Positions 17,325 through 32,950 of a DNA stretch of 35,990 bases are shown here, in pieces. The stretch is taken from the NCBI GenBank assembly GCA_014764515.1, contig JACXWD010000031.1:1-35990 (forward strand), in the 5' to 3' direction. Every line of letters starts with the position of its first letter. Position 1 is the first letter of the stretch. The position numbers and the translations under genes are program-made. The notes under the pieces are model-generated. The model had not been told where the DNA came from. It saw only the letters and a list, made by a program, of their open reading frames with translations, and made no database searches. This DNA comes from Candidatus Polarisedimenticola svalbardensis (GTDB taxonomy: Bacteria; Acidobacteriota; Polarisedimenticolia; Polarisedimenticolales; Polarisedimenticolaceae).

Positions 17325-19163
17325 CTAGGCCGGAACTCCTGTACCCTGGATCAACGGGAACCTGAGCCGGAAGAGGGCGCCGCCTTCGCTGCCGTTGGCC
17401 GCTTCCACGCCACCGCCCAGATCCACCATGGTGCGCTGGACCAGGGCCAGACCCAGGCCGGTGCCCTGGCGCCGGGTCGTATGGAACGGCACAAACACCT
17501 GGCTCAGGTCTTCTGCAGGGATTCCCGGACCATCGTCCTCGACTTCGACCTGGAGGGTCCGGCCGGACGCAACGACCCAGCCGGAGATCCTGACCTGCAC
17601 CGGCCGGTCATCACTCTCCCCGGCCTCAGCCGCATTTCGCAGCAGGTTGTCGAAAACCCGGCGCAGCAGGCCGTCATCCGCCACCACCGTACCGAACTCC
17701 CCTTCCACCTCAATTTTGAGATTCTCCGGAGCGCCCAGGACGGCTCCGCGAATAAGCGGCTCGAGTTCCAGCGGCGACGGAGACGGCTCCGGCGGCCGGG
17801 CGTACAGCAGGAATTCATCCACCGCCTTTCGAACCGTGTCTACTTCCTTCAGGATCTCCCGTGCAGGCCGTCGAACGCCGTCTTCCTGGTGCTTCTCCAG
17901 CAGCCTGGCGTATCCCAGAATCGTTCCCAGGGCGTTTCGAAACTCGTGAGCGATGCCGGCGGAGAGGGTGCCGACAGCCGCCATGTTTTCCCGCAGCCGG
18001 GCCTGGTCCTGCAGGTGTTTTATTTCGGTCAGATCGGTCATCAGGATGAGAGCACCTGCATTTCGATCCCCGCTGCCCGGGCTTGGGGTCACCGAAACTC
18101 CCAGATGACCGCTGCGGCCGTCCCGGAACTGAACCTCCAGCACTTCACGGGTGGCGCTCTCCCCTTTTTTTATGGAGGCGCGGACCAGCAGCTCCAGACC
18201 ACCGGCAGACCCAACCACCGAGTTCAGGTCCTGTCCCACAGCATTGTCCCGCGGCACGGACAGGAGCCTGGAAGCGGTGTCGTTCAGCGCCGCCACCTTG
18301 TTCCTTCCATCCAGAACCAGAACACCGGTACTCATGCCGTCGGCGGACCGGGATGCAAATCGGACCAGGTCGCCGAGACCTGCGCCCTTCCTCTCCAGCG
18401 TGGAGATGGTCTCTTCCTGCTCCTTCAAACGCCGGACAACGGTCCTGAACGCCGAGACAAGGTGGTCCGGCTCTCCCGGATCCAGGCCGGCTTCCCCGGC
18501 TACCGCGGCAATCTTGCGATAGGGGCGGCTGACCCAGTCTGCGAACAGGAACGCCACGATGGCGATCAACAGCACGCCGAGGATCTGAACGCCGAGGATG
18601 TTGTTTGCACGATCGTTCAAATCGGCAAGATCCTGCGCCGGAACCAGGGTCTCCACAACCGCGGCCAACCGTCCGTTATGATCCAGCAGAGGGTAGTGCA
18701 CCGCCAGAACCACGCCCTCCGGCGTATCCGATTCGTCCAGAATCCTGGACACGGTTCGGCCGGCAGCCAGGTCATCCTCCTGCTTCGTCTCCAGAACGGC
18801 GTACGGATCAGGTCCACTGCCGGCTGAAGGCCCGGAGCTGGCCACCGTCCTGCCTGAAATATCCAGAAGTCGAACCTGGCTCAGCCCGCTCCGTTGTGCT
18901 GCAATTCTGAGGGAACTGGAGGTTACCGGGTTGCCGCCTGAACCAGGACGGACCGCCGCCATGAACGGGGGACGGCCGATGCGCTGGATGTATTCCCGGC
19001 TGATCGATTCGGCCCGGGACAGCTCGGAACGCTCCAGGGCCGACCGGGCTCTCCCGACCATGAACGAGTTCAGCAGGTTCAGGATCCCCAGCAGCAGCAC
19101 CAGCAGCACCAGGACCAGCCGGACCTGGAAACCGAAACGGCCGACCCGGAGAGAACCTGCCAT
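17325..19163 (-). CDS. Membrane sensor histidine kinase of the minor-pilin locus
   Basis: This 612-aa kinase has two membrane segments (about 13-35 and 188-210) flanking an extracytoplasmic sensor of roughly 150 residues. A linker/HAMP-like region, a PAS-like domain (about 265-380) and HisKA with His406 in AHEFRN follow. The HATPase domain has the N box NLLRNAAEA, DDGPGIP (544-550) and GTGLGLAL (567-574). The architecture is that of NtrB/AtoS/ZraS-type kinases that pair with NtrC-family regulators. The ATG at 19163 has GGGAGG 5 nt upstream and lies 1 bp after the prepilin peptidase stop. No other kinase gene is near the regulator at 9599-10996, so the two are the likely pair, split by the minor-pilin genes. 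Confidence 0.9.
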   Translation of the reverse strand: MAGSLRVGRFGFQVRLVLVLLVLLLGILNLLNSFMVGRARSALERSELSRAESISREYIQRIGRPPFMAAVRPGSGGNPVTSSSLRIAAQRSGLSQVRLLDISGRTVASSGPSAGSGPDPYAVLETKQEDDLAAGRTVSRILDESDTPEGVVLAVHYPLLDHNGRLAAVVETLVPAQDLADLNDRANNILGVQILGVLLIAIVAFLFADWVSRPYRKIAAVAGEAGLDPGEPDHLVSAFRTVVRRLKEQEETISTLERKGAGLGDLVRFASRSADGMSTGVLVLDGRNKVAALNDTASRLLSVPRDNAVGQDLNSVVGSAGGLELLVRASIKKGESATREVLEVQFRDGRSGHLGVSVTPSPGSGDRNAGALILMTDLTEIKHLQDQARLRENMAAVGTLSAGIAHEFRNALGTILGYARLLEKHQEDGVRRPAREILKEVDTVRKAVDEFLLYARPPEPSPSPLELEPLIRGAVLGAPENLKIEVEGEFGTVVADDGLLRRVFDNLLRNAAEAGESDDRPVQVRISGWVVASGRTLQVEVEDDGPGIPAEDLSQVFVPFHTTRRQGTGLGLALVQRTMVDLGGGVEAANGSEGGALFRLRFPLIQGTGVPA

Positions 19164-19164
19164 C

Positions 19165-19974
19165 TCAGCCTCCCGGCACGAGGAGCCCCAGGTACCAGTC
19201 GATAACCTGGCGGGCGTAGAGCAGGGCCGCAAGGCCGGCAGGTGCGAGGAAACAGCCGAACGGCAGCGTCGACTGCATGCTTCGCCCCCGCAGCGGGATC
19301 AGGGAGACGCCGACCAGGGCGCCTACTACCGAACCGCCGAAAATAGTGAACAGAACCCCCTGGGGGCCGGCCACGGCGCCGACGAACGCCATCATTTTCA
19401 CGTCACCGAACCCCATGGCCTCGACACCCCTCAGGCGAGAGTACAGGGCGCCCACGGTCCAGAGGAATCCTCCACCCAGGGCGCAGCCGGACAGGGCCAT
19501 CCAGATACGGTGAATACCAGGTTCCCCCAGGAACGGGTTGAACCAGGCCACGGCGAACCCGCCGGCAACGCCGGCCAGCGTGATCGCATCCGGTAACAGC
19601 TGGGTATCGAGGTCGGTAAAAAACAGGACGATCATCGCCCACGCGAACGGTACGGCTACCGCAAATTCAGGAGACAGGCCGAACTGCAGCCAAATACCCA
19701 GGGTGGTCGCCCCGGTGAGCGCCTCCACCATCGGGTACCGCAGGCTGATCCCGGCCTTGCATGCGCCGCACCGCCCTCGCAACAGGATCCAGGAGAGCAC
19801 CGGAATGTTCTGGTGCCACCTGATCGGCGTCTTGCAGGACGGGCACCGGGATCCAGGTCGGACAATGCTTAAACCGTGAGGGAGCCGATAGATGCAGACA
19901 TTGAGGAAACTGCCGACGACCAGCCCGATCAGGGTGACGTAGACCGCCTCGAACGGTTCGGGAAGGTGGGGCAT
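19165..19974 (-). CDS. pilD: Type IV prepilin peptidase / N-methyltransferase (PilD/GspO)
   Basis: Inner-membrane aspartic peptidase that cleaves prepilin leaders after Gly and N-methylates the new terminus. The cytoplasmic zinc-type loop has CPSC and CGAC pairs (about 44-73). The two catalytic Asp sites are FTDLDTQLLPD and GFGDVK. The start GSFLNVCIYRLP is diagnostic. 269 aa is typical. It should process the five or more prepilins of this window. The ATG overlaps the TPR gene stop by 1 base (TGATG). Confidence 0.96.
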   Translation of the reverse strand: MPHLPEPFEAVYVTLIGLVVGSFLNVCIYRLPHGLSIVRPGSRCPSCKTPIRWHQNIPVLSWILLRGRCGACKAGISLRYPMVEALTGATTLGIWLQFGLSPEFAVAVPFAWAMIVLFFTDLDTQLLPDAITLAGVAGGFAVAWFNPFLGEPGIHRIWMALSGCALGGGFLWTVGALYSRLRGVEAMGFGDVKMMAFVGAVAGPQGVLFTIFGGSVVGALVGVSLIPLRGRSMQSTLPFGCFLAPAGLAALLYARQVIDWYLGLLVPGG

Positions 19975-20816
19975 CAGCGGTCTCCCAGAATACGATTGGC
20001 TGAACTGTCGACGTTGCCGGTGGCCGGGTTGAAGACATACGGCAGTCCGTCAGGGTCCCTGGGCAGACCGGGGAGCAGGCCCTCGTCAACCAGGACGTCG
20101 ATCCCGGCCGGCCAGCGGCCGTTCCGGGAGTGATACGCGTTCACGGCCCCTCGGATCATCTTCAGATCGATCCGGACATGAAACTCCCGGACCTGGCGCT
20201 CGGCAATCGCCCGGGTCGTATCGTCGATCTCAGGATCCTCGTAAAGTTCCCGCCAGAGACGGTACGCCTTGCCCAGGTCTCCCGACCTGGCCACGGCGCC
20301 GGCGCGGTTGCGGGCAATGAGGTCCGGCGCTCCGGGAATCCCGGAAGCTTTTGCGAAATATTCGGATGCCTTGCCGAATTCGCCGGCATGGAAGCATTCC
20401 CATCCTGCGATGTAAGGCAGAATCCAGTCACCCGGGTTGCGCTCCATACCAAGATCCAGCAATCGCAGCGCACCCGGCAGATCACGGGCCTCCACCGAGA
20501 GGATCATCGCCCCCAGGGAATAGGCGTCGGTAAACCCGGGGTCCAGCTCGGCGATGACATTCCCGAATACATGTTCCACGTAGCGGAAGCGGTCCTCCCG
20601 CTCGTAATCGGAGTAATGCTGAATCGACCACAGGTAAACCAGATCCGCCACAAGGGCCGAGTGCCCCAGGCTGGCGATCTTGAGGTAGCGGCCGTTGGGC
20701 AGGTATAAAAGATCGTTATCGTCGCCGGTGTTCCCGACCTGGTGCAGCGATACCGCCCCCACCGAGGCGGCTGCGACTCCCAGAACCAGGGCTGCGATGG
20801 CGACGATCCGCTTCAT
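19974..20816 (-). CDS. Exported/anchored TPR protein with a GspG-like C-terminal segment
   Basis: The 280-aa product begins with a signal peptide or anchor (MKRIVAIAALVLGVAAASVG). A region follows with ADLVYLWSIQHYSDYEREDRF and helical TPR-type repeats (about 75-210: LDPGFTDAYSLGAMIL, NPGDWILPYIAG). Residues about 215-280 (MIRGAVNAYHSRNGRWPAG, LPRDPDGLPYVFNPATG) resemble the globular part of GspG-type pseudopilins without the N-terminal pilin helix. A TTG at 20843 is in frame, but the ATG at 20816 is preferred because the signal peptide starts there. It lies 4 bp after the ABC permease gene. Exact role is unknown; context implies pilus biogenesis. Confidence 0.75.
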   Translation of the reverse strand: MKRIVAIAALVLGVAAASVGAVSLHQVGNTGDDNDLLYLPNGRYLKIASLGHSALVADLVYLWSIQHYSDYEREDRFRYVEHVFGNVIAELDPGFTDAYSLGAMILSVEARDLPGALRLLDLGMERNPGDWILPYIAGWECFHAGEFGKASEYFAKASGIPGAPDLIARNRAGAVARSGDLGKAYRLWRELYEDPEIDDTTRAIAERQVREFHVRIDLKMIRGAVNAYHSRNGRWPAGIDVLVDEGLLPGLPRDPDGLPYVFNPATGNVDSSANRILGDR

Positions 20817-20820
20817 GACG

Positions 20821-21621
20821 TCAGTTGAAATCCCGCCGCTCAAAAACGATACAAGCGACGGTCAGCACGGCCAGGGCGTAACCTGATCCGTAGAGCAGGG
20901 CCGACAACAGGTAGCCGTCCGGAAGGGCTCCTCCATGGACCGCCTGGGATTTGACGTTGAGGTATCCGAGGTTGGGGAGGGCCCAGTACAGGACATCGCA
21001 CAGGGTTCGGCCGACTCCCTCGGGAAGCCTGGCTTTCAGCAGTTCGAAACTCCAGGTCAGGTGACCGGTGACGTATACCGCCGCCGTTCCAACCGCCGCC
21101 AGGATCGGGTTGGCGAAACTGCTGAACAGAAGGGCGAAGGCGGTCACCAGGGCCAGTTCCACAAAAATCATCAGGGCCGCCACAGGAATTCCCGTCATGG
21201 ACTCGCCACGCACAACCAGGATCAGAAGCAACATCCCGGTCATCACCAGGACATTCATGACCAGGACCAGGAGGAGGCCTGCATATTTCCCGGCAACGAA
21301 CTGCCAGCGCTGCACCGGGTTGGCCAGCAGGGTGTAGATAGTCCGTTTCTCGATTTCCTTGAATACCAGCGAAACGCCGACGAACACGGCGGTCAGTACC
21401 CCGAATATGGAGATAGCGGACAGACCCACATCCTTGATGATCCTGCCCTCTTCCCCCACCGTGAGCATGGACAGCAGGCGGGAGACCAGGATCAGGATCA
21501 GGGCAAACACGAGGATCAGGTACATGACCCGGTCCCGTACCGCCTCGCGAAAGGTGTTCAGGCCGATGGCCGCCACAGCCGCTCCGAAGTGGGCCGGACG
21601 CCTGTTGTTTTCAGCGTTCAC
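20821..21621 (-). CDS. ABC-2 type transporter permease
   Basis: This 266-aa integral membrane protein has about six hydrophobic segments (for example LILVFALILILV, LLVLVMNVLVMTGMLLLILVV, AALMIFVELALVTAFALLFSS). The ABC-2 pattern KEIEKRTIYTLLANPVQRWQF lies after the second segment. The GTG start at 21621 is backed by AAGGAGGTG at ideal spacing and lies inside the 3' end of the ATPase gene (11-bp overlap). With the ATPase it forms a complete exporter-type pair. A related ABC pair next to pilD occurs in the Myxococcus pil cluster (pilGHI). The substrate is unknown. Confidence 0.85.
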   Translation of the reverse strand: MNAENNRRPAHFGAAVAAIGLNTFREAVRDRVMYLILVFALILILVSRLLSMLTVGEEGRIIKDVGLSAISIFGVLTAVFVGVSLVFKEIEKRTIYTLLANPVQRWQFVAGKYAGLLLVLVMNVLVMTGMLLLILVVRGESMTGIPVAALMIFVELALVTAFALLFSSFANPILAAVGTAAVYVTGHLTWSFELLKARLPEGVGRTLCDVLYWALPNLGYLNVKSQAVHGGALPDGYLLSALLYGSGYALAVLTVACIVFERRDFN

Positions 21622-22531
21622 GAGCCACCTCCTTCATGAAGAGGTCTTCCAGCGACTCACGCCGGGGCCAGACCGATACAACCTCCGCCGGACTCTCCGC
21701 CACCGCTGCCAGAAGTCGGCCCAGTTCGGCCACATCCGGAACCTTGACCATGACCTTCTCCCCGGAGGCGGAAGCGACCTCCCGGTCCCACGGGGACGGA
21801 ACCTGCCCCCGTACGGCTACCTCGAACCAGCGGGGCTTGGATCGGACCATCTGGTCCAGTACTCCCAGATGGCGCAAACGTCCTTCAACGACGATCCCTA
21901 CGCGGTCGCAGATCAACTCGGCGTCCTGAAGGATGTGGCTGGAGAAAAAGACGGTTTTGCCCGCCTCGCGCAGTTCGAGGATCAGATCCCGCACCTCCCG
22001 TCGTCCGATCGGGTCAAGACCGGACATCGGCTCGTCCAGGATCACCAGATCCGGATCGTGGAGTATCGCCTGGGCGAGACCCAGCCTCTGCACCATACCT
22101 TTGGAGAATTTCCGGAGCGCCTGGGACCGGCCGGCGTCCAGACCAACCCGTTCCAGGGTGGCCTCCACACGCCGGCGGCGCTCCGCCCGGCCGAACCCGT
22201 GAAGGCGTCCGTAGAAATCCAGGAATTCCGGAGCCGTCAGGTAATCGTAGAAATAGGGGTTTTCCGGGAGGAATCCGATCCTTGCCCGGGCAGAGACATC
22301 TGAAGGAGGCCTGCCGAACAACCGCACGGACCCGGCATCGGGCCTCAACAGACCGATCATCGCCTTGAGGGTCGTTGTTTTGCCGGCGCCGTTGGGACCG
22401 AGCAGACCGAAAATTTCGCCCCGGCCCACGGAAAGATCGAGGCCGGAAACAGCTACTTTTCGCCCCAGGCCCAGATGTCCCTTGAAACTCTTCACCAGGC
22501 CGCTGATCTCAATGACAGCAGATTCCGCCAT
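21611..22531 (-). CDS. ABC transporter ATP-binding protein
   Basis: ATPase of 306 aa. Walker A is GPNGAGKTT, the Q-loop region is [14 protein letters not shown], the signature is [15 protein letters not shown] and Walker B is [13 protein letters not shown], followed by the SSHIL switch His. This is the CcmA-like family that partners ABC-2 permeases. The C-terminal 80 residues form a small regulatory domain. The ATG at 22531 has AGGAGGAG about 10 nt upstream; an ATG at 22555 has the Shine-Dalgarno too close. Its position between pilin-linked glycan genes and pilD suggests it is needed for pilus or glycan export, by analogy with the Myxococcus PilH ABC protein. Confidence 0.88.
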
Positions 22532-22583
22532 ACACCCCAATCTCCTCCTGGGCATTCCTCAGAGTCATCAAAGGTGATTTAAT

Positions 22584-23879
22584 TCATTCTTCGGCGAGAT
22601 GCAAGCTTTCGGCGATTTCCAGCCCGTCCAGGATCGCCCGCTCCATGTACGAGTAGGTCCAGGCTCCGTATCTTCCTATCAGGTGAACGCCGTGGGCCTT
22701 GAGCGCCGGGACCAGTTCGGCCATCGCCTGCTGCCGGCTGCGATCAAAGATGACGTACCCCGGATCGACCCGCACCAGGTCCCGGACCAGGACCTTGTCT
22801 TCGGGGAGAAGCAGGCCGGCATCGAGCAGGCCTCGTTCCATGGTGGAGGCCAACTGTTCAGGATCGTAGGGCTCATCCTTCCGGAGGCCCATCTCCACAT
22901 ACATGGAAGAAGTGCCTGGAGGAGCCACCGCGTCGGAAAAATTCGACGGAAAACCGGCCCGGTAGAACGGCACGTCGTCGTCGGGGTAGTAGATCCAGTG
23001 CGCCCCGTCACCCATCCCCTCCCGTGCCACGCCCAAATTCAGGCAGGCGACCACCGAAGCGTCCAGCCGGGGCGCCTGGGAAGGCCAGTCCGTGTCACCG
23101 CCGCGGGCCATGGCGAGAAACGCCGGGAGAGGCGCCGTGACGACCAGCTGGTCGTAAGCCAGCCGCTCTCCCGATGCCAGGGTGACCTTCCGCGCTTCAA
23201 GGTCCACCACAGCTACCGGGCAATCGCAGCGCAGGTGCTCTACCCGACGGGCCAGCGCCTCGGGCAGGACCCCGATACCCCCGCTGGCCGGATATCGGAA
23301 CGTGGCGTTGTATCCCATGCCGGTATTCGGAACGCCGGTTGCGCCCCGGACCACCTCATCCAGGTTCGGCTTCGGCACAGCCCAGGAGACCCAGTCGGCC
23401 GTCATGTCTGCCGGACGCCGCCGGAACAGCTTTTCGTTGTACGGGAACATGAATCCGTCACAGATCCCCCGCCCGAACACCGCCAGCGCCCAGTCCTCAA
23501 ACGATGTGGCCGGATCGTCCGGCACCTCTCCGTCGAGGGTCTTGACGAACTCGACAACGCATCGCGCCACGAAATCCGGCGGCAAGCCGTGGAGGTTGGC
23601 CTGGTAAGGGAACGGCAGCGTCACACCCCGGGAACGGATGACCGCCTTGCGGACCGTTTCCGCCAACCCTCCGGGCAGAAGATCTTCCACCAGCCGGATC
23701 GCCCGAGGGTCTCTGAGGTGGAGCAGGTGGCCGGTATAATCGAAGATGAAGCCATCGATCTCCCGGGAGCGACACAGTCCGCCCGGCGTGCTTTCGGACT
23801 CCAGCACGACATGCTCGGCGGCTCCCAGATGATAGGCGGTGGACAGGCCGGCAAGACCGCCCCCGATGATCACAATCAT
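22584..23879 (-). CDS. FAD-dependent oxidoreductase, UDP-galactopyranose mutase / protoporphyrinogen-oxidase-like
   Basis: The 431-aa protein opens with a dinucleotide-binding fold, MIVIIGGGLAGLSTAYHL, followed by the acidic ribose-binding strand and GGLCRSREIDGFIFDYTGHL. The middle segment FMFPYNEKLFRRRPADMTADW resembles the region of UGM-like flavoenzymes that contacts nucleotide sugar. The C-terminus LIGRYGAWTYSYMERAILDG closes the FAD site. UGM itself makes UDP-galactofuranose, but the similarity is too loose to name the substrate. It sits between wecA-like and ABC genes on the same strand, 16 bp from the former, so a glycan role is likely. Confidence 0.75.
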   Translation of the reverse strand: MIVIIGGGLAGLSTAYHLGAAEHVVLESESTPGGLCRSREIDGFIFDYTGHLLHLRDPRAIRLVEDLLPGGLAETVRKAVIRSRGVTLPFPYQANLHGLPPDFVARCVVEFVKTLDGEVPDDPATSFEDWALAVFGRGICDGFMFPYNEKLFRRRPADMTADWVSWAVPKPNLDEVVRGATGVPNTGMGYNATFRYPASGGIGVLPEALARRVEHLRCDCPVAVVDLEARKVTLASGERLAYDQLVVTAPLPAFLAMARGGDTDWPSQAPRLDASVVACLNLGVAREGMGDGAHWIYYPDDDVPFYRAGFPSNFSDAVAPPGTSSMYVEMGLRKDEPYDPEQLASTMERGLLDAGLLLPEDKVLVRDLVRVDPGYVIFDRSRQQAMAELVPALKAHGVHLIGRYGAWTYSYMERAILDGLEIAESLHLAEE

Positions 23880-23895
23880 ACGACCCTCACAGCCA

Positions 23896-24900
23896 TCAAA
23901 GACTCATGTCGATCCGTTTGAACAGCACGGCGCAGATCAAGGCCGCCACCGCCAGCCCGCAGAGCACCGCCAGGGCCTGGTCACGGGAACCGAGGCTCAT
24001 GGCGATGGCGGCAACGCCAAGCAACGCCGTGACTGCGTAGGAGATCACAACCGTTTGACGGGTTGAGAATCGCCATTTTCGAAGACGGAGCGCCACATGG
24101 TCCGGGCTCCCCAGCATCACCGACATTCCACGGCGGTACCGGATGTACATGACGAACAGCATGTCGAACAGCGGAACTCCGAGGATGATCGCCGGGGCCA
24201 GGGCGGCCACCGTATTGCGCTCGGTATAGGCGTTGTTCATTGCCAGGGCGCCTAGAAGCAGCCCGATGAACAGGGCGCCGGAATCTCCCATGTAGATCCG
24301 TGCAGGCTGGAAGTTGTATTTCAGGAACCCGGCACAGGCGCCGGCGAGAGCGGCCAGTATCACCGCTGCCGTTATCAGCCCTCCCAGGTGGGCCATCACC
24401 AGGAGCGCCAGAGCGGCAATAATCGCCGTACCTGCGGACAGGCCGTCCATGATGTCGATCAGGTTGAAAGCATTGGTAACCGCCAGCAGCCACAGGATCG
24501 ATACAGGCAGGGAGATCCAGAGCGGCAGGATGACCAGCTGGATGAAGATACCTGACTTGAGGAGAACAACCACCGCCACCAACTGGCCTGCAAGCTTGGT
24601 CCACGGCCCGATCTGACCCAGGTCATCCACCAGGCCGATCACCACCAGAATCGATCCTGCCAGCAGGATCCCCAGCACCTGGCCATCGAATTTCACCGTG
24701 CCGGCCAGAGACAACAGGAACGCCAGGTAGATCGCCAGTCCGCCGAGGTACGGCACCGGCCGGCGGTGCCCCTTGAGCGCACCGTCCGGAGCATCCACAA
24801 TCCCGAATTTCAGGGCCGCGTTCAGCATCCTCGGAGTCAGGCCCAGAGAAAAGATCGCCGCCAGGATGAATGCAAGCAGGTAGGTCAGCCAGGGACTCAA
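23896..24900 (-). CDS. Undecaprenyl-phosphate sugar-1-phosphate transferase (WecA/TagO/MraY family)
   Basis: This 334-aa polytopic protein has about ten membrane helices. Family motifs are LVDDLGQIGP (catalytic Asp pair), NAFNLIDIMDGLSAG, KYNFQPARIYMGDSGALFIG and SPDHVALRLRKW. It transfers a HexNAc-1-phosphate to the lipid carrier and thereby begins O-antigen, teichoic acid or other glycan assembly. The MraY pentapeptide motif is not seen and the local genes are not peptidoglycan genes, so the WecA side of the family fits best. The start is TTG, with AAGGAG about 10 nt upstream and no alternative ATG near the first helix. Confidence 0.85.
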   Translation of the reverse strand: MSPWLTYLLAFILAAIFSLGLTPRMLNAALKFGIVDAPDGALKGHRRPVPYLGGLAIYLAFLLSLAGTVKFDGQVLGILLAGSILVVIGLVDDLGQIGPWTKLAGQLVAVVVLLKSGIFIQLVILPLWISLPVSILWLLAVTNAFNLIDIMDGLSAGTAIIAALALLVMAHLGGLITAAVILAALAGACAGFLKYNFQPARIYMGDSGALFIGLLLGALAMNNAYTERNTVAALAPAIILGVPLFDMLFVMYIRYRRGMSVMLGSPDHVALRLRKWRFSTRQTVVISYAVTALLGVAAIAMSLGSRDQALAVLCGLAVAALICAVLFKRIDMSL

Positions 24901-24946
24901 CGCGTTGTTTCTCCTTCCGCAGGAAAACCTTATATCAGATCCGGCG

Positions 24947-26848
24947 TCACCGGGTGGTTTGCTCTATCCGACGGACCAGCGCAGCGTCCCGGACCGGGTC
25001 CAGGTCCAGCATTACCGATGCGTACTCGTTCTCCTTCAGATCGCCGGAGGCCGCCTTCGCATGGGCCAGCGCTTCCTCCCGCAACGACTTCGCACGGGGA
25101 ACTGCAGCGCTGCCGTCCCGGGCAAGGATCGCCATCGCCTTCAGCAGCAGAGGCGGGACCGAAGCTGGTTCCAGGGCCAGGACCCGGTCGGCAGCGTCGA
25201 CGGCGCCATGGGGATCGGAAACCGTAAGGAGGAAATCGCCGGCCTCCATCGGGATCATTGCCAGGTAAGGGGCCAGATTTTCAGCTGTACGGTAATGCAA
25301 AAGCGCCCTCTCCCGGGACGCCTGGTCCCGGAACAGCTCCCGGCAGCCCCTGGCCTCGATCCTGGCCAGCCTGCGGCGCAGTCCGGCGTCACCGGGGTGA
25401 AGCCGCACCGCCTCCTCGCCATGGACCCGGGCAACCTGGTACGCCGGGAGGGTCAAGGGTCCCCGGGGCATCCAGCTTTCCGCCAGCGCCATGCGGATGT
25501 ACGGCTGGATGCGGTTGTACCGAACCGCCTCCTGCAGTTCGGCTCGCGTCGGCGCCCTGTCCCGCCCATCGGTCAACCGGTAGGCCAGATACGGACCGAC
25601 ATCGGCGGCGATGAACGTTATCAACAGCACGGCACAGCCGAGGATACTGCTGGGCCGTACAGATCCCCTCCCGTCGCAACGTACACGTAACCGCTCCTCC
25701 CGGGGATCTGTACGGCCTAGCAGGCCTCCCAGGAGTGCCGCCGCCGTCAGGTACACCGCAGGGCTGTGGGACAGGTTCTGGAACGCGGAATGGGCCAGGA
25801 GCGCCAGGAGAGCGGCGACCGCTCCCGCGGAAGAGGGCGGCAGAGCGCCTGATTTCCTGCGGTTCCGGATCAGCCTTGCCGACCCCAGCAGAACCAGCAG
25901 CAGCAGCACGGCTCCCGGGACGCCGCATTCAGCCGGCAGCCGCAGCCAGTCGGAGTGGGAGTTGGAATACAGATGGTCGTAAGACAGAACCCCTTCGCCG
26001 TCGGGGAACTGGTAGCGGCGGGCGTTCCAGTCGAACTGGTTCGGACCGACTCCAAGCCAGGGATGGTCCGACGCCATGGCGATGGCGCCGTTCCAGATGC
26101 CGACGCGGTGCAGGGAGAAACGGTCCGGTCCACGGAATCTTTGCGCCATCGCCCCGGCCACTACCACGCCGGCCAGCGTCATTACCGCGACGGCGGCGAT
26201 CCGTTCCCGGCGTTGCATGCTGCGCCACGCAACCAACAACAGGTAGAGGGTGCCGGCGCCCAGGCCGACAAAGGCGCCTCTGGAACCGGACAGTACCAAC
26301 CCGCCAAACAGGATCATAAGGGCGGAGCCGTGAAGAAAGCATTCCCGCCTGGACGGACGCTGGTCCCGGCTGCCGGCCAGGATCAGGAGCGCCGCCGTCA
26401 GCCAGGCCGCGAGATCGTTCGGGTTGAAAAACGTGCCGGCGGACCGCCATTCGTCGTGGCCCAGGCGACGAAACAGAACGTAGCCAACCTGCAGCAGCGC
26501 CGCCACCGGTAGAACGTAGGCGAAACGCTTCAAAAACGGACCGCCGCCACGGAACGCCAGCCAGGCGACGCCGAGGAAGACGGCCAGTTCAAGGGCCGCG
26601 GTGAACGCTCCGTAGCTGTAGACCGCCGTTGAGGCCCCGGCGATGACCGTGGCAAGGAATGCGATCAAAGGCCATAGAACCGAACGATGGATTGTATCGA
26701 CAGGGGTGGGTGACCACAGTTCGAACCCGACCAGCCCGACTACGGCAAGGTGGACCAGCAGCATCGCCTCCGGAGCGACGCCCCCTCCCCCCAGCGTTCC
26801 CGCCGCCAGGAGTCCTGCCAGGATCCACGGCATGAACGACCTAGTCAC
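24947..26848 (-). CDS. Wzy_C-family (O-antigen ligase/polymerase or PglL-like) membrane protein with TPR-like tail, copy 2
   Basis: This 633-aa protein has about ten to twelve membrane helices. The large periplasmic loop of the Wzy_C family carries DHPWLGVGPNQF (261-272) and the His motif HSDWLRLPAECGVPG (298-312). FFNPNDLAAWL (about 140) is another family landmark. A C-terminal soluble part (about 430-630) has TPR-like helices. Family members either polymerise or ligate lipid-linked glycans or, as PglL/PilO, move glycans onto pilin. It overlaps its paralogue by 8 bp (GTG start at 26848, GGGGGG upstream; an ATG follows at codon 6). A 22-bp inverted repeat lies inside the gene. Confidence 0.8.
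   Translation of the reverse strand: MTRSFMPWILAGLLAAGTLGGGGVAPEAMLLVHLAVVGLVGFELWSPTPVDTIHRSVLWPLIAFLATVIAGASTAVYSYGAFTAALELAVFLGVAWLAFRGGGPFLKRFAYVLPVAALLQVGYVLFRRLGHDEWRSAGTFFNPNDLAAWLTAALLILAGSRDQRPSRRECFLHGSALMILFGGLVLSGSRGAFVGLGAGTLYLLLVAWRSMQRRERIAAVAVMTLAGVVVAGAMAQRFRGPDRFSLHRVGIWNGAIAMASDHPWLGVGPNQFDWNARRYQFPDGEGVLSYDHLYSNSHSDWLRLPAECGVPGAVLLLLVLLGSARLIRNRRKSGALPPSSAGAVAALLALLAHSAFQNLSHSPAVYLTAAALLGGLLGRTDPREERLRVRCDGRGSVRPSSILGCAVLLITFIAADVGPYLAYRLTDGRDRAPTRAELQEAVRYNRIQPYIRMALAESWMPRGPLTLPAYQVARVHGEEAVRLHPGDAGLRRRLARIEARGCRELFRDQASRERALLHYRTAENLAPYLAMIPMEAGDFLLTVSDPHGAVDAADRVLALEPASVPPLLLKAMAILARDGSAAVPRAKSLREEALAHAKAASGDLKENEYASVMLDLDPVRDAALVRRIEQTTR
25647..25723. repeat. 22-bp inverted repeat with 33-nt loop inside a Wzy_C gene
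   Basis: Plus-strand arm 25647-25668 (starting CTGCTGGGCCGTACAGATCC) is repeated in reverse complement at 25702-25723, with one difference in 22 positions (G versus A). The intervening loop is 25669-25701. The arms encode part of a hydrophilic linker (residues about 377-401) between two membrane segments, so the reading frame is preserved. No flanking direct repeat was identified. Confidence 0.85.
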
Positions 26849-28532
26849 CGGGCAAACCCCCCTGCACTACCTGGCCCAGACCGGCCGCCCGGCCCCGGTA
26901 GTCCAGGTCCACCGGGTACAGCCGGGCCGCTTCAAGGGCATCGGACCAGGCACCGGTCAGGTCACCGCTCTGTTGCCGCGCCAGGGACCGAAGCCCACGG
27001 GCCGAAGGGCGGAACGGCGCCAGTCGGATGACCGCATCCGCTTCGGCCACAGCTTCGGGAAAGCTGCCCCCTGCAAGGTGCAACCGGACCTTGAGGAGCC
27101 GGGAGTCCGGATCCCAGGGCGCCAATGCCACGGCCCGTTCTGCAAACTCAAGAGCCGGGACCGGTTCGGAACGGGCTTCGGCCGCCAGGGCGTCGAGACG
27201 GGCGTTGGAGGCCAGCCCGCCAAGGGCTGTCACGACTGCGGCGAGAACGACCACCGCCAGGGACGCCGTTTCCAGACCTTGGGGCCGATGCCCCTGCTTC
27301 TTGTCCTCCGTTCCGATCAGGGTTCCCAGGAGGAGCGCCGCCATCCACAACAAGGAAGGCATGTACGCCGTATAGTCGGCCAGGTTGTGGATGGCGAAAG
27401 CGGCCAGGCCGATTGCGGCTCCGCTGCGCCATGTCGGCGATGTCGATCGCCTGTGCCGCTCACCGGCCAGGGGCGCCATGAAAAGCACAAAGAACAGGAC
27501 CGTCAACATGGAGCCGGCGGGGATCCCGAATTCCGCCGCAAGTTCCATGGGAAGGTTATGGACATGCATCGATTCGTTGTCGCCTGCCATGCGATATCCC
27601 GGGTAGCGCTCGCCGTACCCGCCGGGGCCGACGCCGATCCATGGATGATCCGCCGCCATCTCCCCGGCTATCCGGATATTGCCGGCCCGGAGACGGAGAG
27701 GATTGTTGCCGTGGTCAGGATTGAGAATCTCCGCTCCCCGCAGCAGCGCCAGCAGGACTCCTCCTGTCACGACTACCAGGACAGCCACCAGCAACAGTCT
27801 TCTGGCGCCTGTGGACCCCAGCCCGATCAGGCCGGCCAGCGCCAGCGCCACCGCCAGGGAGATCAGTGCCGTGGCCGACGCGGCGGAAACAAGTCCACCG
27901 ACCTGCAGCAATGCAGCCAGGGAAAACAAGGCTCGATTCCTGCCCCCGGCCTGCCGGGCCAGGACCAGCGTAACCGGCAGCGCCAGCGCCATGAACCCAC
28001 CCAGTGCGGCGGGGGTGCTGAACGTCCCAAAGGCCCGCCCGTCCAGGACCCGGTCCAGGATCTGCTGGTGGTAGGCGATGTCGGTCCGTTGCGCCAACTC
28101 GGCGGCCAGCCGCGGGAGGGTCCAGAACCGTTGCACCAGACCATGGAGTCCGGCCAGAGCTCCGGCCAGGGCCAGGGTCCCGGCGATCCAGCCCTCGGTT
28201 CGGTTCCCTGTGACCAGCCTCGCCGCCCCAAAACCTGCCGCCAGTGCCAGAACCCAGACCGCCAGTGGACCGATCGCCTTGCCGGGTGCGGCGGAGACCA
28301 GGATGATCGGCCAGGAGAGGGCGGCCAGCAAAAGGAGGGCCTTGCTCAGCACGGGAGCCGGACGGGTGGCGGACGCCTGGAGGGCCAGGAGTGCGATCAG
28401 AGCGGCGCAACCTGCAGCAGACTCACCCCGTGTCTCGGGTGGAGCCAGGGCCAGCGCCAGGATCAGGCTGCACGGCAGGAGGATCGGGAGCGTGGACGAA
28501 GCGGAACGGGGTTCGGCCACTCCCGGCATCAC
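26841..28532 (-). CDS. Wzy_C-family (O-antigen ligase/polymerase or PglL-like) membrane protein with TPR-like tail, copy 1
   Basis: This 563-aa protein is a paralogue of the next gene. It has multiple membrane helices, FSTPAALGGFMALALP, the Wzy_C core DHPWIGVGPGGYGE (295-308) and the His motif VHNLPMELAAEFGIPAG (324-340). A C-terminal region (about 450-563) has TPR-like helices (AVALAPWDPDSRLLKVRLHL, AEADAVIRLAPFRPSARGL). GTG (28532) or the adjacent ATG (28529) starts it, both overlapping the pilin stop. The neighbourhood (pilin directly upstream, WecA-like downstream) fits a pilin O-oligosaccharyltransferase or a glycan polymerase; which one cannot be told from sequence. Confidence 0.8.
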   Translation of the reverse strand: MMPGVAEPRSASSTLPILLPCSLILALALAPPETRGESAAGCAALIALLALQASATRPAPVLSKALLLLAALSWPIILVSAAPGKAIGPLAVWVLALAAGFGAARLVTGNRTEGWIAGTLALAGALAGLHGLVQRFWTLPRLAAELAQRTDIAYHQQILDRVLDGRAFGTFSTPAALGGFMALALPVTLVLARQAGGRNRALFSLAALLQVGGLVSAASATALISLAVALALAGLIGLGSTGARRLLLVAVLVVVTGGVLLALLRGAEILNPDHGNNPLRLRAGNIRIAGEMAADHPWIGVGPGGYGERYPGYRMAGDNESMHVHNLPMELAAEFGIPAGSMLTVLFFVLFMAPLAGERHRRSTSPTWRSGAAIGLAAFAIHNLADYTAYMPSLLWMAALLLGTLIGTEDKKQGHRPQGLETASLAVVVLAAVVTALGGLASNARLDALAAEARSEPVPALEFAERAVALAPWDPDSRLLKVRLHLAGGSFPEAVAEADAVIRLAPFRPSARGLRSLARQQSGDLTGAWSDALEAARLYPVDLDYRGRAAGLGQVVQGGLPGD

Positions 28533-28975
28533 TCCGGAGAAGCGATGAACATCCCGTCACTCAACAGGATATCCAGGTTGTAGTCGCCCCGGGTCCCGAG
28601 GTTGATGTCGGCGCCGTCAACCCCGTCCTTGCCATACGATTCCAGAGAATAGGCGCTGGCCGACGCGGTGTATATCATCGGGTTGGACCAGTGGTCGGCC
28701 TGGGGAACCACATTGATCTGGTAGGGAACGAGCAGCGGCGCGATGGCAGTCAGGTCGCCCTGGGGAACCCTGCCCACGTCAACCTGGTACGCCTCGATCG
28801 CCTTGGAGACCGTTCTCATATCCGCCATGGTGGCCCTCTGTTTGGCCCGGTCCAGGGCGGAGAACAGAGCGACGATGGCAAGGGCGGCCAAAATGCCCAG
28901 AATGACGAGAGTGACCAGCAGTTCGATCAGCGTGAAGCCTCTCTGTTTTAGTTCCCACCGTGCCTCGCGGCGCAT
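28529..28975 (-). CDS. Type IV pilin-like protein 2 (GspG-like)
   Basis: The 148-aa prepilin has leader MRREARWELKQRG before FTLIELLVTLVILGILAALA, with Glu5. The stretch RAKQRATMADMRTVSKAIEAY is shared with pilin 1 (RGKQKRTMADMRSIGTAVESY), so the two are tandem paralogues. The GspG-type DHWSNPMIYTASASAYSLESYGKDG follows. No Cys pair is present. ATG at 28975 has GGGGAG 7 nt upstream. It is separated from pilin 1 by an intrinsic terminator, so it is probably expressed less. Its stop overlaps the first Wzy_C gene. Confidence 0.9.
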   Translation of the reverse strand: MRREARWELKQRGFTLIELLVTLVILGILAALAIVALFSALDRAKQRATMADMRTVSKAIEAYQVDVGRVPQGDLTAIAPLLVPYQINVVPQADHWSNPMIYTASASAYSLESYGKDGVDGADINLGTRGDYNLDILLSDGMFIASPE

Positions 28976-29066: not shown

Positions 29067-29100
29067 AAAAAAACGGCGGGAGCATTGGCTGCCCCCGCCG
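29067..29100 (-). terminator. Intrinsic terminator after the main pilin gene
   Basis: On the minus strand CGGCGGG (29094-29100) pairs with CCCGCCG (29074-29080) around a 13-nt loop. A run of seven T follows (A-run 29067-29073 on the plus strand). It ends pilin 1 transcripts 33-67 bp after its stop codon and limits read-through into pilin 2 and the glycan genes. Confidence 0.9.
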
Positions 29101-29133: not shown

Positions 29134-29580
29134 TTACTGCTGGGCGCCTTCCGGCCACTGCACGAACTGCCCGTTGACAAACCAAATGTCATCGGAGAAG
29201 TTGCCTGTCGCGCCACCTACGTAACCGTCGTTGGCCGCGCCCTTGGCGTAGGCCTGCAAGCTGTACTCGGCTCCGGTTGTAGAGTCATAGTCCATCGTGC
29301 CCTGCCAGCCGTCAACGAGCGGGAGGACTTTGATGTACAGCGGCGTCAGGGAGGTGGACACGGCAGCCAGGGTGCCGCCTACGGGGTAGATGTTGGAGTC
29401 GATGGCGTACGATTCAACGGCGGTGCCGATGGAACGCATGTCTGCCATGGTCCTCTTCTGCTTGCCCCGGTCAATCGCGTTCAGCAGGTTCGGGATCGCG
29501 ATGGCGGCGATGATACCGATAATCGCGACCACGATCAGAAGCTCGATAAGTGTAAAACCTTTAGAATTTCTAATTTTCAT
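29134..29580 (-). CDS. Type IV pilin, probable major subunit (GspG-like)
   Basis: The 148-aa prepilin has a short leader (MKIRNSKG) before FTLIELLIVVAIIGIIAAIA, with Glu5 and the Pro22 kink (IPNLL). The globular part keeps the GspG-like features ESYAIDSNIYP and EYSLQAYAKGA, with no terminal Cys pair. ATG at 29580 has AAAGGAGG 7 nt upstream, an unusually strong site befitting an abundant protein. A sigma-54 promoter and PilR-type operators lie upstream and a strong terminator lies downstream, so it is monocistronic. It occupies the pilA position after pilR, so it is the likely main pilus subunit. Confidence 0.9.
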   Translation of the reverse strand: MKIRNSKGFTLIELLIVVAIIGIIAAIAIPNLLNAIDRGKQKRTMADMRSIGTAVESYAIDSNIYPVGGTLAAVSTSLTPLYIKVLPLVDGWQGTMDYDSTTGAEYSLQAYAKGAANDGYVGGATGNFSDDIWFVNGQFVQWPEGAQQ

Positions 29581-29615: not shown

Positions 29616-29631
29616 AGCAACCCTGATGCCA
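29616..29631 (-). promoter_or_regulatory. Sigma-54 promoter of the main pilin gene
   Basis: Minus-strand TGGCAT-N5-TTGCT differs from the TGGCAC-N5-TTGCW consensus by one base, with GG and GC at the exact spacing. Transcription should start near 29605, about 25 nt before the pilin ATG. A second TTGGCATC copy lies 21 bp further upstream but lacks a -12 element. Confidence 0.85.
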
Positions 29632-29792: not shown

Positions 29793-29821
29793 GGACCGTT
29801 CATTCTACCTCGCAACGGTCC
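29793..29821 (-). other. 8-bp hairpin enclosing the pilR stop codon
   Basis: On the minus strand GGACCGTT (29814-29821) pairs perfectly with AACGGTCC (29793-29800). The pilR TAG lies in the 13-nt loop. No T-run follows, so it is not a standard intrinsic terminator; it may mark the 3' end of pilR mRNA or be structural. Confidence 0.45.
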
Positions 29822-31259
29822 CTGAATCACCGTCGGAGGAGAACGTAGGCGCCGAACCGCCGTCACGGCCCGTCAAATCGTACTTTTTCGCAAAGTACCT
29901 GAAGGAACGGAATGTCATGCCCAGCATCTCCGCCGCCTTGGTCTGCACTCCGCCGACCCGCTCCATCGCCTCCACCATGTACTTACGCCGGAGTTCTTCA
30001 AGGTGTCTATCCAGATCGACGCCTCCGTCCGGCAATCGTACGGAATCGTCACCACCCCGGCTCACGCCTGAGCGGACTTCCGGGGGCAGGCTGTCCGGGA
30101 TAATGGCGGGGCCGGCTTCCAGCGCCACGGCGCGCTCAATGACATTTTCCAGCTGCCGTACGTTCCCGGGCCAGCTGTACGCTTCCAGGAACTCCATCGC
30201 TTCCTTGCTGATCGCCTCCACCGGCTTTTCGATGAGAACGCGGTACTTTTCCAGGAACTGTTCCGCCAGGGCCGGAATGTCCTCCGGTTTTTCACGGAGG
30301 GCCGGCATCTTGATCGGGATAACGTTTATGCGATAGAACAGATCTTCCCGGAAGGTCTTGTCCTGAACCATCTGCTCCAGATCCTGGTTGGTGGCGGTGA
30401 TGACCCGGACATCTACTGCCGTCTCCTCCGTGCCGCCTACTTTGCGGATTTTCCGCTCCTGCAGCACCCGGAGAAGTTTGATCTGCATAGCCGGCGAGGT
30501 TTCTCCGATCTCGTCCAGGAAGATGGTCCCGGCATCGGCGACCTCGAAGAGGCCTTTCTTGGTGCCGGCGGCGCCGGTGAACGAACCTTTCATGTGTCCG
30601 AACAGTTCGCTTTCCAGCAGTTCATCCGGCAGCGCGCCGCAGTTGATGCTGACGAACGGCGCCCCGGCGCGACTGGAGTTGTGATGGATCGCCCGGGCGA
30701 TCAGTTCCTTGCCCGTACCCGACTCGCCTGAAATCATGATGGTGCTGTTGGTATTGGCCACCCGCTTGATGAGCTGGAAGATATCCCGCATCTTGATGCT
30801 GCGCCCGACCAGATCACCAAACTTGAATTTCCCCTTGATTTCTTCCCGGAGGTCCTTGTTCTGTACCTTCAGGTTGGCGTTCTCGTGGACCAGGGCCTTT
30901 CGATCCAGGGTCCGCTTCACAACCATCTTCATCTCTTCAAGGTCGAACGGCTTTTCAACGTACCAGGCGGCTCCGTTGTTCAACGCCTCTATGGCGGTGT
31001 CCTTGGTGCCGTATGCAGTCATCATGAGCACCTCGGTATCCGGCGACTTCTTTTTGGCGTAATTGAGAAGCTCCAGGCCGGTCATCCCGGGCATGGAGAT
31101 ATCGCTGATCAGGATGTCGAACCGTTCCCCCTTCGCCAGAATGTCCCGGGCCAATATTGCCGATTCCGCCGCCTGGACTTCGTAATTTTCCTTGCGAAGC
31201 ATCATGGCGAGGAGATCCCTCATGCTCTTTTCGTCTTCCACCACCAGAATCCTGCTCAC
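29805..31259 (-). CDS. pilR: PilR, sigma-54-dependent response regulator of pilin transcription
   Basis: The 484-aa NtrC-family activator has a receiver with phospho-acceptor Asp53 (ISDISMPG). The AAA+ domain has Walker A GESGTGKE, the sigma-54 loop GSFTGA (a form common in PilR) and Walker B GTIFLDEI, with the sensor segment ATNQDL. The C-terminal Fis-type helix-turn-helix is KAAEMLGMTFRSFRYFAKKY. GTG start in a GTGA overlap with pilS. It is followed downstream by its likely target, the main pilin promoter. Confidence 0.95.
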   Translation of the reverse strand: MSRILVVEDEKSMRDLLAMMLRKENYEVQAAESAILARDILAKGERFDILISDISMPGMTGLELLNYAKKKSPDTEVLMMTAYGTKDTAIEALNNGAAWYVEKPFDLEEMKMVVKRTLDRKALVHENANLKVQNKDLREEIKGKFKFGDLVGRSIKMRDIFQLIKRVANTNSTIMISGESGTGKELIARAIHHNSSRAGAPFVSINCGALPDELLESELFGHMKGSFTGAAGTKKGLFEVADAGTIFLDEIGETSPAMQIKLLRVLQERKIRKVGGTEETAVDVRVITATNQDLEQMVQDKTFREDLFYRINVIPIKMPALREKPEDIPALAEQFLEKYRVLIEKPVEAISKEAMEFLEAYSWPGNVRQLENVIERAVALEAGPAIIPDSLPPEVRSGVSRGGDDSVRLPDGGVDLDRHLEELRRKYMVEAMERVGGVQTKAAEMLGMTFRSFRYFAKKYDLTGRDGGSAPTFSSDGDSGTVAR

Positions 31260-32950
31260 AGTCTTGCCCCCCCGGCGGCGTAGGTCCGTTCCATGGCAGA
31301 AGAGCCCTTAACAGGTTCACAGGTCCCGGGGATGTCGATAACCACGCTGGTTCCCCCACCCGGGCTGCTTTCCACTCCGATTCTGCCTCGATGTTCTTCA
31401 ATCAGCCGGTACACGATCGCTGCCCCCAGTCCGTTGCCCTGGCGAAAAGAGCTTTGGAAAGGCTGGAAGTACTGCTCCATCTCCTGATCGCTCATACCTC
31501 TGCCTTCATCGGTGAAGCGGATACGGATGAGGCCCTCACCTTCCGGCACCTCGAGATGGATGGAGAGCGTTCCGCCTTCGGGCATCGCCTTCAGGGCGTT
31601 GGTGGCAAGATTCCAGAAAACCTGCTTGAGGCGGTTGACATCCACCTCGGCTTCTATCCGGGCTTCCTGGAATACGGTTTGAATGCGGTGGTCGCTCCCG
31701 AACTCCGCGCTCTTGGTCAACAGCTTGATGTTGTCCTGAAACAGACGCACAAGGTCGGAGCGCTCCGGGGTGAATCGTCCCGGACGGGCGAAGGTCAGGA
31801 AGTCCCGGATGACCTGGTCCAGTCGGAGAGACTCCCTCATGATGATGTCCATCAACTCGGTGGTCTCGGCATCAGGCGCGGTGTTGGACCGCAGGTACTG
31901 CACCGAACCGCTGATCGCCGCCAGAGGGTTCCTCAATTCATGGGCCATGCCGGCCGCCATCTCACCCAGGGCGGCCATCCTCTCCTTGAGACGGACCTCC
32001 TGTTCCAGGGCCTGGATGTCCGTCAGATCCTGGAAAATAAAAATGAAACCCAGGGGGTTCCCCATCCGATCGTAAAGATTGGACGCTGCGATACCGAGGA
32101 AGATCTTGTCACCGGATGTGGTTGGAAACCACTCTTCGAAGCGGAACCGGCGGTTCGCCAGCAGTTGCTTGCGAAGCTCGTGCAGGAAGCCTGGCTGAAG
32201 GGAGAACAACTTCTCCACGGGCCAACCCAGCACATTCCTGGAATTGTGCCCGGTGATCGCCGCCCCGCCCCGGTTCATGAAATTGACCTGACCCGACATG
32301 TCGGTGGTAACCAGTCCGGAATTGATCGATTCGATGATATTTTCGTTGAGGGCCTGTAACCGGGCAACCGCCCCGCGACGTTCGGCCAGTTCATCACCCT
32401 GGGTGCGCAGGCGCTCGGAAAGGTAGGACGCAAGCACCGCCACGGCCAGGAACGCCACGAGATGAACCACCAGGAAATAGACCGTTGCACGCGGCTCGGT
32501 CTCGGGCACCATGTCCATCAGCCGCCCCAGGGGCGCCCAGCGGCTGCCTGCCGTGCCCATGACGGCGTACAGCATCCAGCAGCCTGCGGCGGTTATCAGC
32601 CCTCCCTTGCGGTAATGCAGCATGGCGGCAACGGTGATCGGGAGGAGATAGAGGAAGGACATCGGGCTGTCCATCCCGCCGGTGATGCCGACGAAGCCGC
32701 TAACGACCAGAGCGTCACCGGCGATCTGCAGATAGGCGAAAGACCTCCTCCCGGAAATCCAGCGCTCCAGAAATGCATACAACAGGACCATGCCGTACGC
32801 GACGGCTGCCAGTAGGAACAGCGGCTGCAGGGTACGGACCGGAGTGAACAGCAGCTCGATGGTGAAAGCCGATACCAGCAGGGTGGAAATAGTCACCACC
32901 CTGAGGATCATCAGCCATCGAAGCTGCCGTCCTGTCTCCGTTCCTTTCAT
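31256..32950 (-). CDS. pilS: PilS, membrane sensor histidine kinase
   Basis: The 564-aa kinase has about six N-terminal membrane helices (residues about 12-178), as in Pseudomonas PilS, with little extracytoplasmic domain. A PAS domain (about 203-312) and HisKA with His337 in MAHELRNPL follow. The HATPase domain has FWNLATNALKAMPEG, DEGRGM and GNGLGAAIVYRLIEEH; the last G box reads GLGAA rather than GLGLA. It phosphorylates PilR. It is translationally coupled to pilR and lies 18 bp after pilC. Confidence 0.94.
   Translation of the reverse strand: MKGTETGRQLRWLMILRVVTISTLLVSAFTIELLFTPVRTLQPLFLLAAVAYGMVLLYAFLERWISGRRSFAYLQIAGDALVVSGFVGITGGMDSPMSFLYLLPITVAAMLHYRKGGLITAAGCWMLYAVMGTAGSRWAPLGRLMDMVPETEPRATVYFLVVHLVAFLAVAVLASYLSERLRTQGDELAERRGAVARLQALNENIIESINSGLVTTDMSGQVNFMNRGGAAITGHNSRNVLGWPVEKLFSLQPGFLHELRKQLLANRRFRFEEWFPTTSGDKIFLGIAASNLYDRMGNPLGFIFIFQDLTDIQALEQEVRLKERMAALGEMAAGMAHELRNPLAAISGSVQYLRSNTAPDAETTELMDIIMRESLRLDQVIRDFLTFARPGRFTPERSDLVRLFQDNIKLLTKSAEFGSDHRIQTVFQEARIEAEVDVNRLKQVFWNLATNALKAMPEGGTLSIHLEVPEGEGLIRIRFTDEGRGMSDQEMEQYFQPFQSSFRQGNGLGAAIVYRLIEEHRGRIGVESSPGGGTSVVIDIPGTCEPVKGSSAMERTYAAGGARL

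Follow-up and report, generated by a model that had tools for sequence, protein, structure and literature searches.

Pilin-specific O-oligosaccharyltransferases are known from a few proteobacterial groups, and they are used to make glycoconjugates. We analysed a type IV pilus gene cluster of Candidatus Polarisedimenticola svalbardensis (Acidobacteriota) on contig JACXWD010000031.1 (C160 among the 180 contigs of the 3.69 Mb genome); this whole stretch of 35,990 nucleotides is referred to as the window. Directly after the pilin genes it encodes two Wzy_C membrane proteins, WzyA and WzyB, followed by genes for a WecA-like and a UDP-galactopyranose-mutase (UGM)-like enzyme. We read this block, with a probability of about 0.6, as a module dedicated to pilin O-glycosylation within the type IV pilus gene cluster.

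The known pilin-specific enzymes are encoded beside their pilin (PMC12645811; PMC3643930). In the TfpO/PilO and TfpM systems, as here, a Wzy_C enzyme without the PglL_A or Wzy_C_2 domain lies next to its presumed pilin substrate (PMC12645811). However, the present locus has two enzymes, each with a tetratricopeptide repeat (TPR) tail, occurs in other phyla, and in relatives carries associated glycan genes inside the pilus cluster. PglL and the ComP-specific PglS share with the pair a WaaL-like fold, the Arg/Arg/His set seen in WzyB, an extra C-terminal domain and a frequent location near pilin genes (PMC3643930, PMC12800693), whereas the C-terminal domain here is a TPR domain and the PglL_A and Wzy_C_2 domains are absent. 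The O-antigen ligase WaaL (CAZy GT121) is the best fold match of both proteins, and WzyB has the same Arg/Arg/His; in contrast to WaaL, the genes here are in a pilus cluster and not in a lipopolysaccharide (LPS) context, WzyA lacks the first Arg, and a TPR tail is added. Wzy polymerases share the Wzy_C domain and, in relatives of the window, the neighbouring glycosyltransferase, Wzx and WecA genes, but WzyA and most WzyB proteins carry His instead of Asp/Glu, and the locus has no Wzz or Wza. The cluster as a whole resembles the Myxococcus-type pilBTCSRA-GHI-D cluster in its pil gene order and in the pilHI-like ABC transporter after pilA (PMC6060248 for pilGHI), except that here the Wzy_C module sits between pilA and pilHI. 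In a search of the open-access literature, with subscription papers mostly outside it, we found no description of pilin glycosylation in Acidobacteria or Nitrospira, nor of an O-antigen-ligase/TPR protein linked to pilin.

Linkage of the Wzy_C pair to the pilin genes

The pilin and Wzy_C genes of the window are as follows.

29134..29580, minus strand: pil1, first pilin, likely the major one (N_methyl; ATG at 29580 with a strong ribosome-binding site; conserved in relatives)
28529..28975, minus strand: pil2, second pilin, coupled to WzyA (N_methyl and T2SSG; GFTLIELL)
26841..28532, minus strand: WzyA, Wzy_C membrane protein with a C-terminal TPR domain (Wzy_C 2e-15; GTG start at 28532 or ATG at 28529)
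24947..26848, minus strand: WzyB, Wzy_C membrane protein with a C-terminal TPR domain and residues R190/R248/H298 (Wzy_C 1.2e-18)

All genes named in the initial annotation (pilin, WzyA, WzyB, WecA-like and UGM-like) were recovered on the minus strand from open reading frames (ORFs), called mechanically in GC-rich DNA, and Pfam matches. The proposed translational coupling was also borne out: the pil2 stop and the WzyA ATG share one base (TGATG at 28531-28527), and WzyA overlaps WzyB by 8 nt. The coupled partner is the second pilin, while pil1 lies upstream.

Of 41 genomes (31 genera) in the window's class, 40 have WzyA and WzyB homologues, nearly always as a tandem pair, and profile searches of the relatives separate them into two distinct groups in the fixed order A then B. 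The pilin-A-B arrangement recurs in other Acidobacteriota classes at much lower similarity. The relatives' genomes are largely drafts, and flanks are lost at contig ends in several. An ORF with a pilin motif lies at most 3 kb upstream of WzyA at 30/33 testable loci of the class and 14/17 testable loci of other classes. Over all testable loci this amounts to 44 of 50. Among the six loci without such an ORF are L148 and L195, which carry non-orthologous Wzy_C genes; the L148 match (genome G015) was rejected from the class set as a Wzy with Wzz nearby. The same test found a pilin motif at 0/19 generic Wzy_C genes of the phylum, which were picked from high-scoring matches outside pil clusters and are not a random sample. 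Such recurrence of gene order and pilin adjacency in dozens of genomes is far beyond chance.

In family f5, one continuous open frame of 1249-1781 aa covers both WzyA and WzyB in each of the eight genomes with a complete frame (G029, G027, G039, G037, G021, G035, G023 and G031), which suggests that the two proteins cooperate physically. One Wzy per pilin is not the rule, because genomes with a single detected pilin (L114, L115, L120) retain both Wzy genes.

A WzyB orthologue (260-320 bits) was found in 8 of 100 sampled Nitrospirota genomes, singly and at all 8 loci in the order pilin-WzyB-tprG-pilH, with pilI as well where the locus is long enough. An apparent second Wzy upstream of the Nitrospira pilins turned out to be a TPR protein matched by the TPR part of the profile. 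At the acidobacterial pil clusters L032, L038 and L076, pilHI follows pilA and no Wzy_C gene was detected; thus, the Wzy_C module has been inserted into the pil cluster at a defined position. Single WzyA-like genes also occur in deltaproteobacterial metagenome-assembled genomes (MAGs; L240:8538-10019 and L241:249-2063, 244 and 312 bits), with no pilin detected in the available stretches.

Fold, residues and phylogeny of WzyA and WzyB

AlphaFold2 models were obtained for WzyB (predicted local distance difference test, pLDDT, 92.4; predicted template modelling score, pTM, 0.91) and WzyA (pLDDT 92.9, pTM 0.93). Both show a confident C-terminal helical repeat domain that matches TPR structures in profile and Foldseek searches, confirming the TPR-like tails of the initial annotation. 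A Foldseek comparison with the PDB gave WaaL (7tpg) as the best solved match of both proteins, with WaaL and PglL as the only solved relatives. The WzyB core profile further matches 9rmk, deposited as an oligosaccharyltransferase, at 3.1e-7, and the GQRNN motif of 9rmk resembles the Q178/N180 signature reported for PglL (PMC3643930). A search of solved structures with the WzyA core profile gave no oligosaccharyltransferase or ligase match.

In fold and profile alignments, WzyB R190/R248/H298 align with WaaL R191/R265/H313, the roles of which are given in PMC10920833, and also match the conserved R224/R298/H349 of PglL/PglS, of which WzyA lacks the first Arg. In an extended set of sequences, R or K occupies the WaaL R191 position in all 37 generic Wzy_C and all 56 WzyB proteins, whereas not one of the 57 WzyA proteins has Arg there, a hydrophobic residue being the usual one. 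All proteins of the set have the second Arg. The ligase-type His is kept in 57/57 WzyA and 50/56 WzyB proteins, the other WzyB proteins having Glu (5) or Asp (1). Most polymerase families of clan GT-C1 have Asp/Glu at this position (PMC10920833), so by this measure both proteins look more ligase-like than polymerase-like.

In a tree that includes generic Wzy_C proteins and two PDB sequences, the WzyA proteins group together (Shimodaira-Hasegawa-like approximate likelihood ratio test, SH-aLRT, 98), and a branch with support 93 sets off WzyB together with its Nitrospirota relatives, WaaL and one generic sequence. A 148-sequence FastTree agrees with this grouping, although the positions of the two PDB sequences are unsure because of their long branches. 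The two Wzy_C genes are indeed in tandem, as first annotated, but the trees reject a recent tandem duplication and show anciently diverged lineages instead of recent paralogues. WzyA is its own pilin-linked clade and WzyB stands apart from the generic Wzy_C proteins, so the pair does not group with O-antigen polymerases from genomes without nearby pilins, the outcome that the initial annotation had named as refuting its reading.

Glycan genes beside the pair

Two further genes of the window lie beside the pair.

23896..24900, minus strand: WecA/MraY-like polyprenyl-phosphate sugar-1-phosphate transferase (Glycos_transf_4 1.2e-33; matches MraY structures)
22584..23879, minus strand: UGM-like flavoenzyme (PDB UGM 4dsg 2e-56, residues 2-423 of 431)

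The WecA and MraY models themselves scored below the cut-off for the first protein. The UGM-like gene follows it, as initially described, although it lies just outside the interval 23896-28975 first assigned to the block; it is retained in 39 of 41 relatives, the weakest matches not being orthologous. Between WzyB and WecA-UGM, relatives encode GT2, GT4 and GT9 glycosyltransferases, in several cases a Wzx or MurJ-type flippase and, varying by genome, sulfotransferase, asparagine-synthase-like, heparinase-like and methyltransferase genes. At the extremes, WzyB and UGM are separated by about 1 kb (the window's genus) and about 16 kb (G019). The cassette has constant flanks and a variable middle, as in O-antigen or capsule loci, and even inside one genus a sister species can lack counterparts of some middle genes. 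Asparagine-synthase-like amidotransferase genes near the module (L280:375-2315, L244:11836-13812) occur in both Acidobacteriota and Nitrospirota, hinting at amidated sugars.

No Wzz or Wza homologue was found in the window or at any locus with the WzyA-WzyB pair; the two matches in the pil set belong to the non-orthologous L148 and L195. By comparison, both are present at two other Wzy_C loci of the window's genome (C162, C165), and Wzz occurs at 7 of 20 generic Acidobacteriota Wzy_C loci, some with Wza. A scan of cassette regions revealed no recognisable LPS core gene.

Organization and regulation of the pilus cluster

The remaining features assigned in the window are listed below.

31256..32950, minus strand: PilS-type histidine kinase (6TM_PilS, HisKA, HATPase_c)
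29805..31259, minus strand: PilR-type sigma-54 response regulator (Response_reg, Sigma54_activat)
29616..29631, minus strand: sigma-54 -24/-12 promoter-like site TGGCATCAGGGTTGCT upstream of pil1 (one mismatch)
29067..29100, minus strand: terminator-like hairpin and T-run between pil1 and pil2 (sequence and fold)
21611..22555, minus strand: ABC transporter ATPase in the pilH position (ABC_tran 9.8e-29)
20821..21621, minus strand: ABC-2 permease in the pilI position (ABC2_membrane_2 3.1e-14)
19974..20843, minus strand: tprG, protein of unknown family (no Pfam match; conserved among the pilus cluster genes)

The minus-strand order is pilB (partial)-pilT-pilC-pilS-pilR-pil1-pil2-WzyA-WzyB-WecA-UGM-pilH-pilI-tprG-pilD, with histidine kinase and minor-pilin genes after pilD; pilB, pilT, pilC, pilD and the minor pilins were named by reading the sequence, without a domain scan. 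An uncultured Acidobacteria MAG (L030) has a PilR with 92% identity to that of the window. The sigma-54-type site lies ~50 nt upstream of pil1 and recurs at about the same place, with 0-1 mismatch, in 27 of 28 loci against a background of 0.5%. Judged by this site and by the families of PilS and PilR, pil1 probably fits the standard PilSR/sigma-54 scheme.

tprG occupies the place of Myxococcus pilG and always adjoins pilH, also in Nitrospirota, where it is next to WzyB. The minor-pilin genes are flanked by what read as a second histidine kinase (17325-19232, minus strand) and an NtrC-type regulator (9599-10996, minus strand), and they include a PilW-like minor pilin of 896 aa (13483-16173, minus strand), identified by its N-terminal prepilin motif, with a long C-terminal part that reads like Fn3-type repeats. 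In some relatives the pilR-pil1 gap holds 2-5 kb of large genes (sulfatase-like, YfhO-like; for example, L125:13469-18138). T-runs ~50 nt past the pil1 stop recur in many relatives.

Discussion

The initial annotation had proposed a pilus-linked glycan role for the block. There is good support for a lipid-linked glycan module dedicated to the pilus: the conserved pilin adjacency, the fold, the WzyB residues, the glycosyltransferase and Wzx genes in relatives and the absence of Wzz and Wza. Pilin is its presumed acceptor. In such a module, glycan assembly would begin with the WecA-like enzyme, which would place the first sugar phosphate on undecaprenyl phosphate. The UGM-like enzyme would supply UDP-galactofuranose, glycosyltransferases (from the cassette in most relatives, from elsewhere in the window's genome) would lengthen the glycan, and a Wzx flippase would bring it to the outside. 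WzyB would then transfer the glycan from undecaprenyl pyrophosphate onto pilin, with WzyA as its partner, either a chain-building polymerase or a second transferase subunit. We lean modestly towards WzyB over WzyA as the oligosaccharyltransferase, given its canonical residues, its match to a solved oligosaccharyltransferase and its retention as the only one of the two in Nitrospirota; WzyA could be a polymerase or a non-canonical, divergent partner. The TPR tails, presumably on the periplasmic side, may bind pilin or join WzyA and WzyB, holding pilin and/or the two enzymes together.

Several observations weigh against pilin glycosylation. PglL_A (PF15864) and Wzy_C_2 (PF11846) are present in none of 38 WzyA and 36 WzyB members (0/74), where TPR families match instead; therefore, membership of the pair in the PglL family, to which the initial annotation had likened it, was rejected. 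Unlike in TfpO/TfpM systems, the pilins lack a conserved C-terminal Ser/Thr: pil1 ends in GAQQ and pil2 in SPE, and relatives have varied C termini, with Thr as the last residue in some, so a C-terminal Ser/Thr sequon was discarded as the acceptor site. Conserved Ser/Thr columns are present in the pil1 alignment and are at most candidate acceptor sites. The window's cassette contains only WecA and UGM, with no glycosyltransferase or flippase, and the glycan would thus need completion by genes elsewhere; two Wzx-type flippases are encoded on other contigs of the genome. Four orthologous loci (L118, L132, L183, L184) have no pilin nearby. A strong terminator-like hairpin parts pil1 from the Wzy_C module, which may need read-through or a promoter of its own. 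In two families (L185, L186, L188, L190, L191), Glu replaces the WzyB His, possibly with a change of function; these genes are still beside WzyA and pilin. Pilin glycosylation is here a prediction from gene order, coupling, conservation, the shared frame, fold, residue patterns and the glycan genes of relatives.

Alternatively, the product of the pair might be an exopolysaccharide or capsule that accompanies the pili without being bound to pilin, the location of the genes reflecting co-regulation of pili and matrix. Wzy_C proteins do include polymerases, glycosyltransferases and Wzx are encoded nearby in relatives, and the glycan region is as variable as in capsule loci. However, the pair loci have no homologue of the Wzz chain-length or Wza export protein, both of which C162 and C165 possess, the genes are linked to the pilin itself in two phyla, and the residue at the acceptor-activating position is the ligase-type His (PMC10920833), which makes this explanation unlikely. 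It is more improbable still that WzyB or WzyA is an ordinary LPS O-antigen ligase or polymerase placed in the pilus cluster by chance. No solved structure is closer to either protein than WaaL 7tpg, and the tree puts WaaL on the side of WzyB; but with so few solved relatives this resemblance is unspecific, and the placement rests on a long branch. Moreover, the scanned cassette regions lack recognisable LPS core genes and pilin adjacency persists over two phyla. A pilin-directed transferase is favoured over an exported polysaccharide or LPS by this two-phylum linkage, by the missing Wzz and Wza and by the location of known O-oligosaccharyltransferases beside their substrates.

A mechanistic version of pilin glycosylation, compatible with it, is that WzyA and WzyB are the two subunits of one glycan transferase, WzyA having lost donor binding and serving as an acceptor-recognition or structural subunit. 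The invariant pairing and order, the overlapping genes, the shared open frame in one family and the loss in WzyA of an Arg that generic Wzy_C proteins keep as R/K would fit such a complex, but the second Arg and His preserved in every WzyA argue for activity and WzyB occurs alone in Nitrospirota; we regard this arrangement as tentative.

Equally speculative is a phylum-wide two-component Wzy_C machine, single-chain in one family, that would build and transfer a species-variable glycan onto pilin, with WzyA as a new Wzy_C class lacking the first undecaprenyl-pyrophosphate-binding Arg and the TPR domains as pilin receptors. If true, Acidobacteriota would possess a serotype-like variable pilin-glycan locus, and Nitrospirota a one-enzyme form of it. 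The presence of the pair in the pilus cluster of most relatives suggests a widespread, unstudied way of sugar-coating pili. Pilin glycosylation by these proteins, if true, would extend the pilin-specific enzymes to abundant environmental phyla, with a large and conserved group that evolved separately and has two TPR-bearing enzymes. It would also provide direct genetic targets for understanding the split between polymerase and ligase activities in the Wzy_C superfamily.

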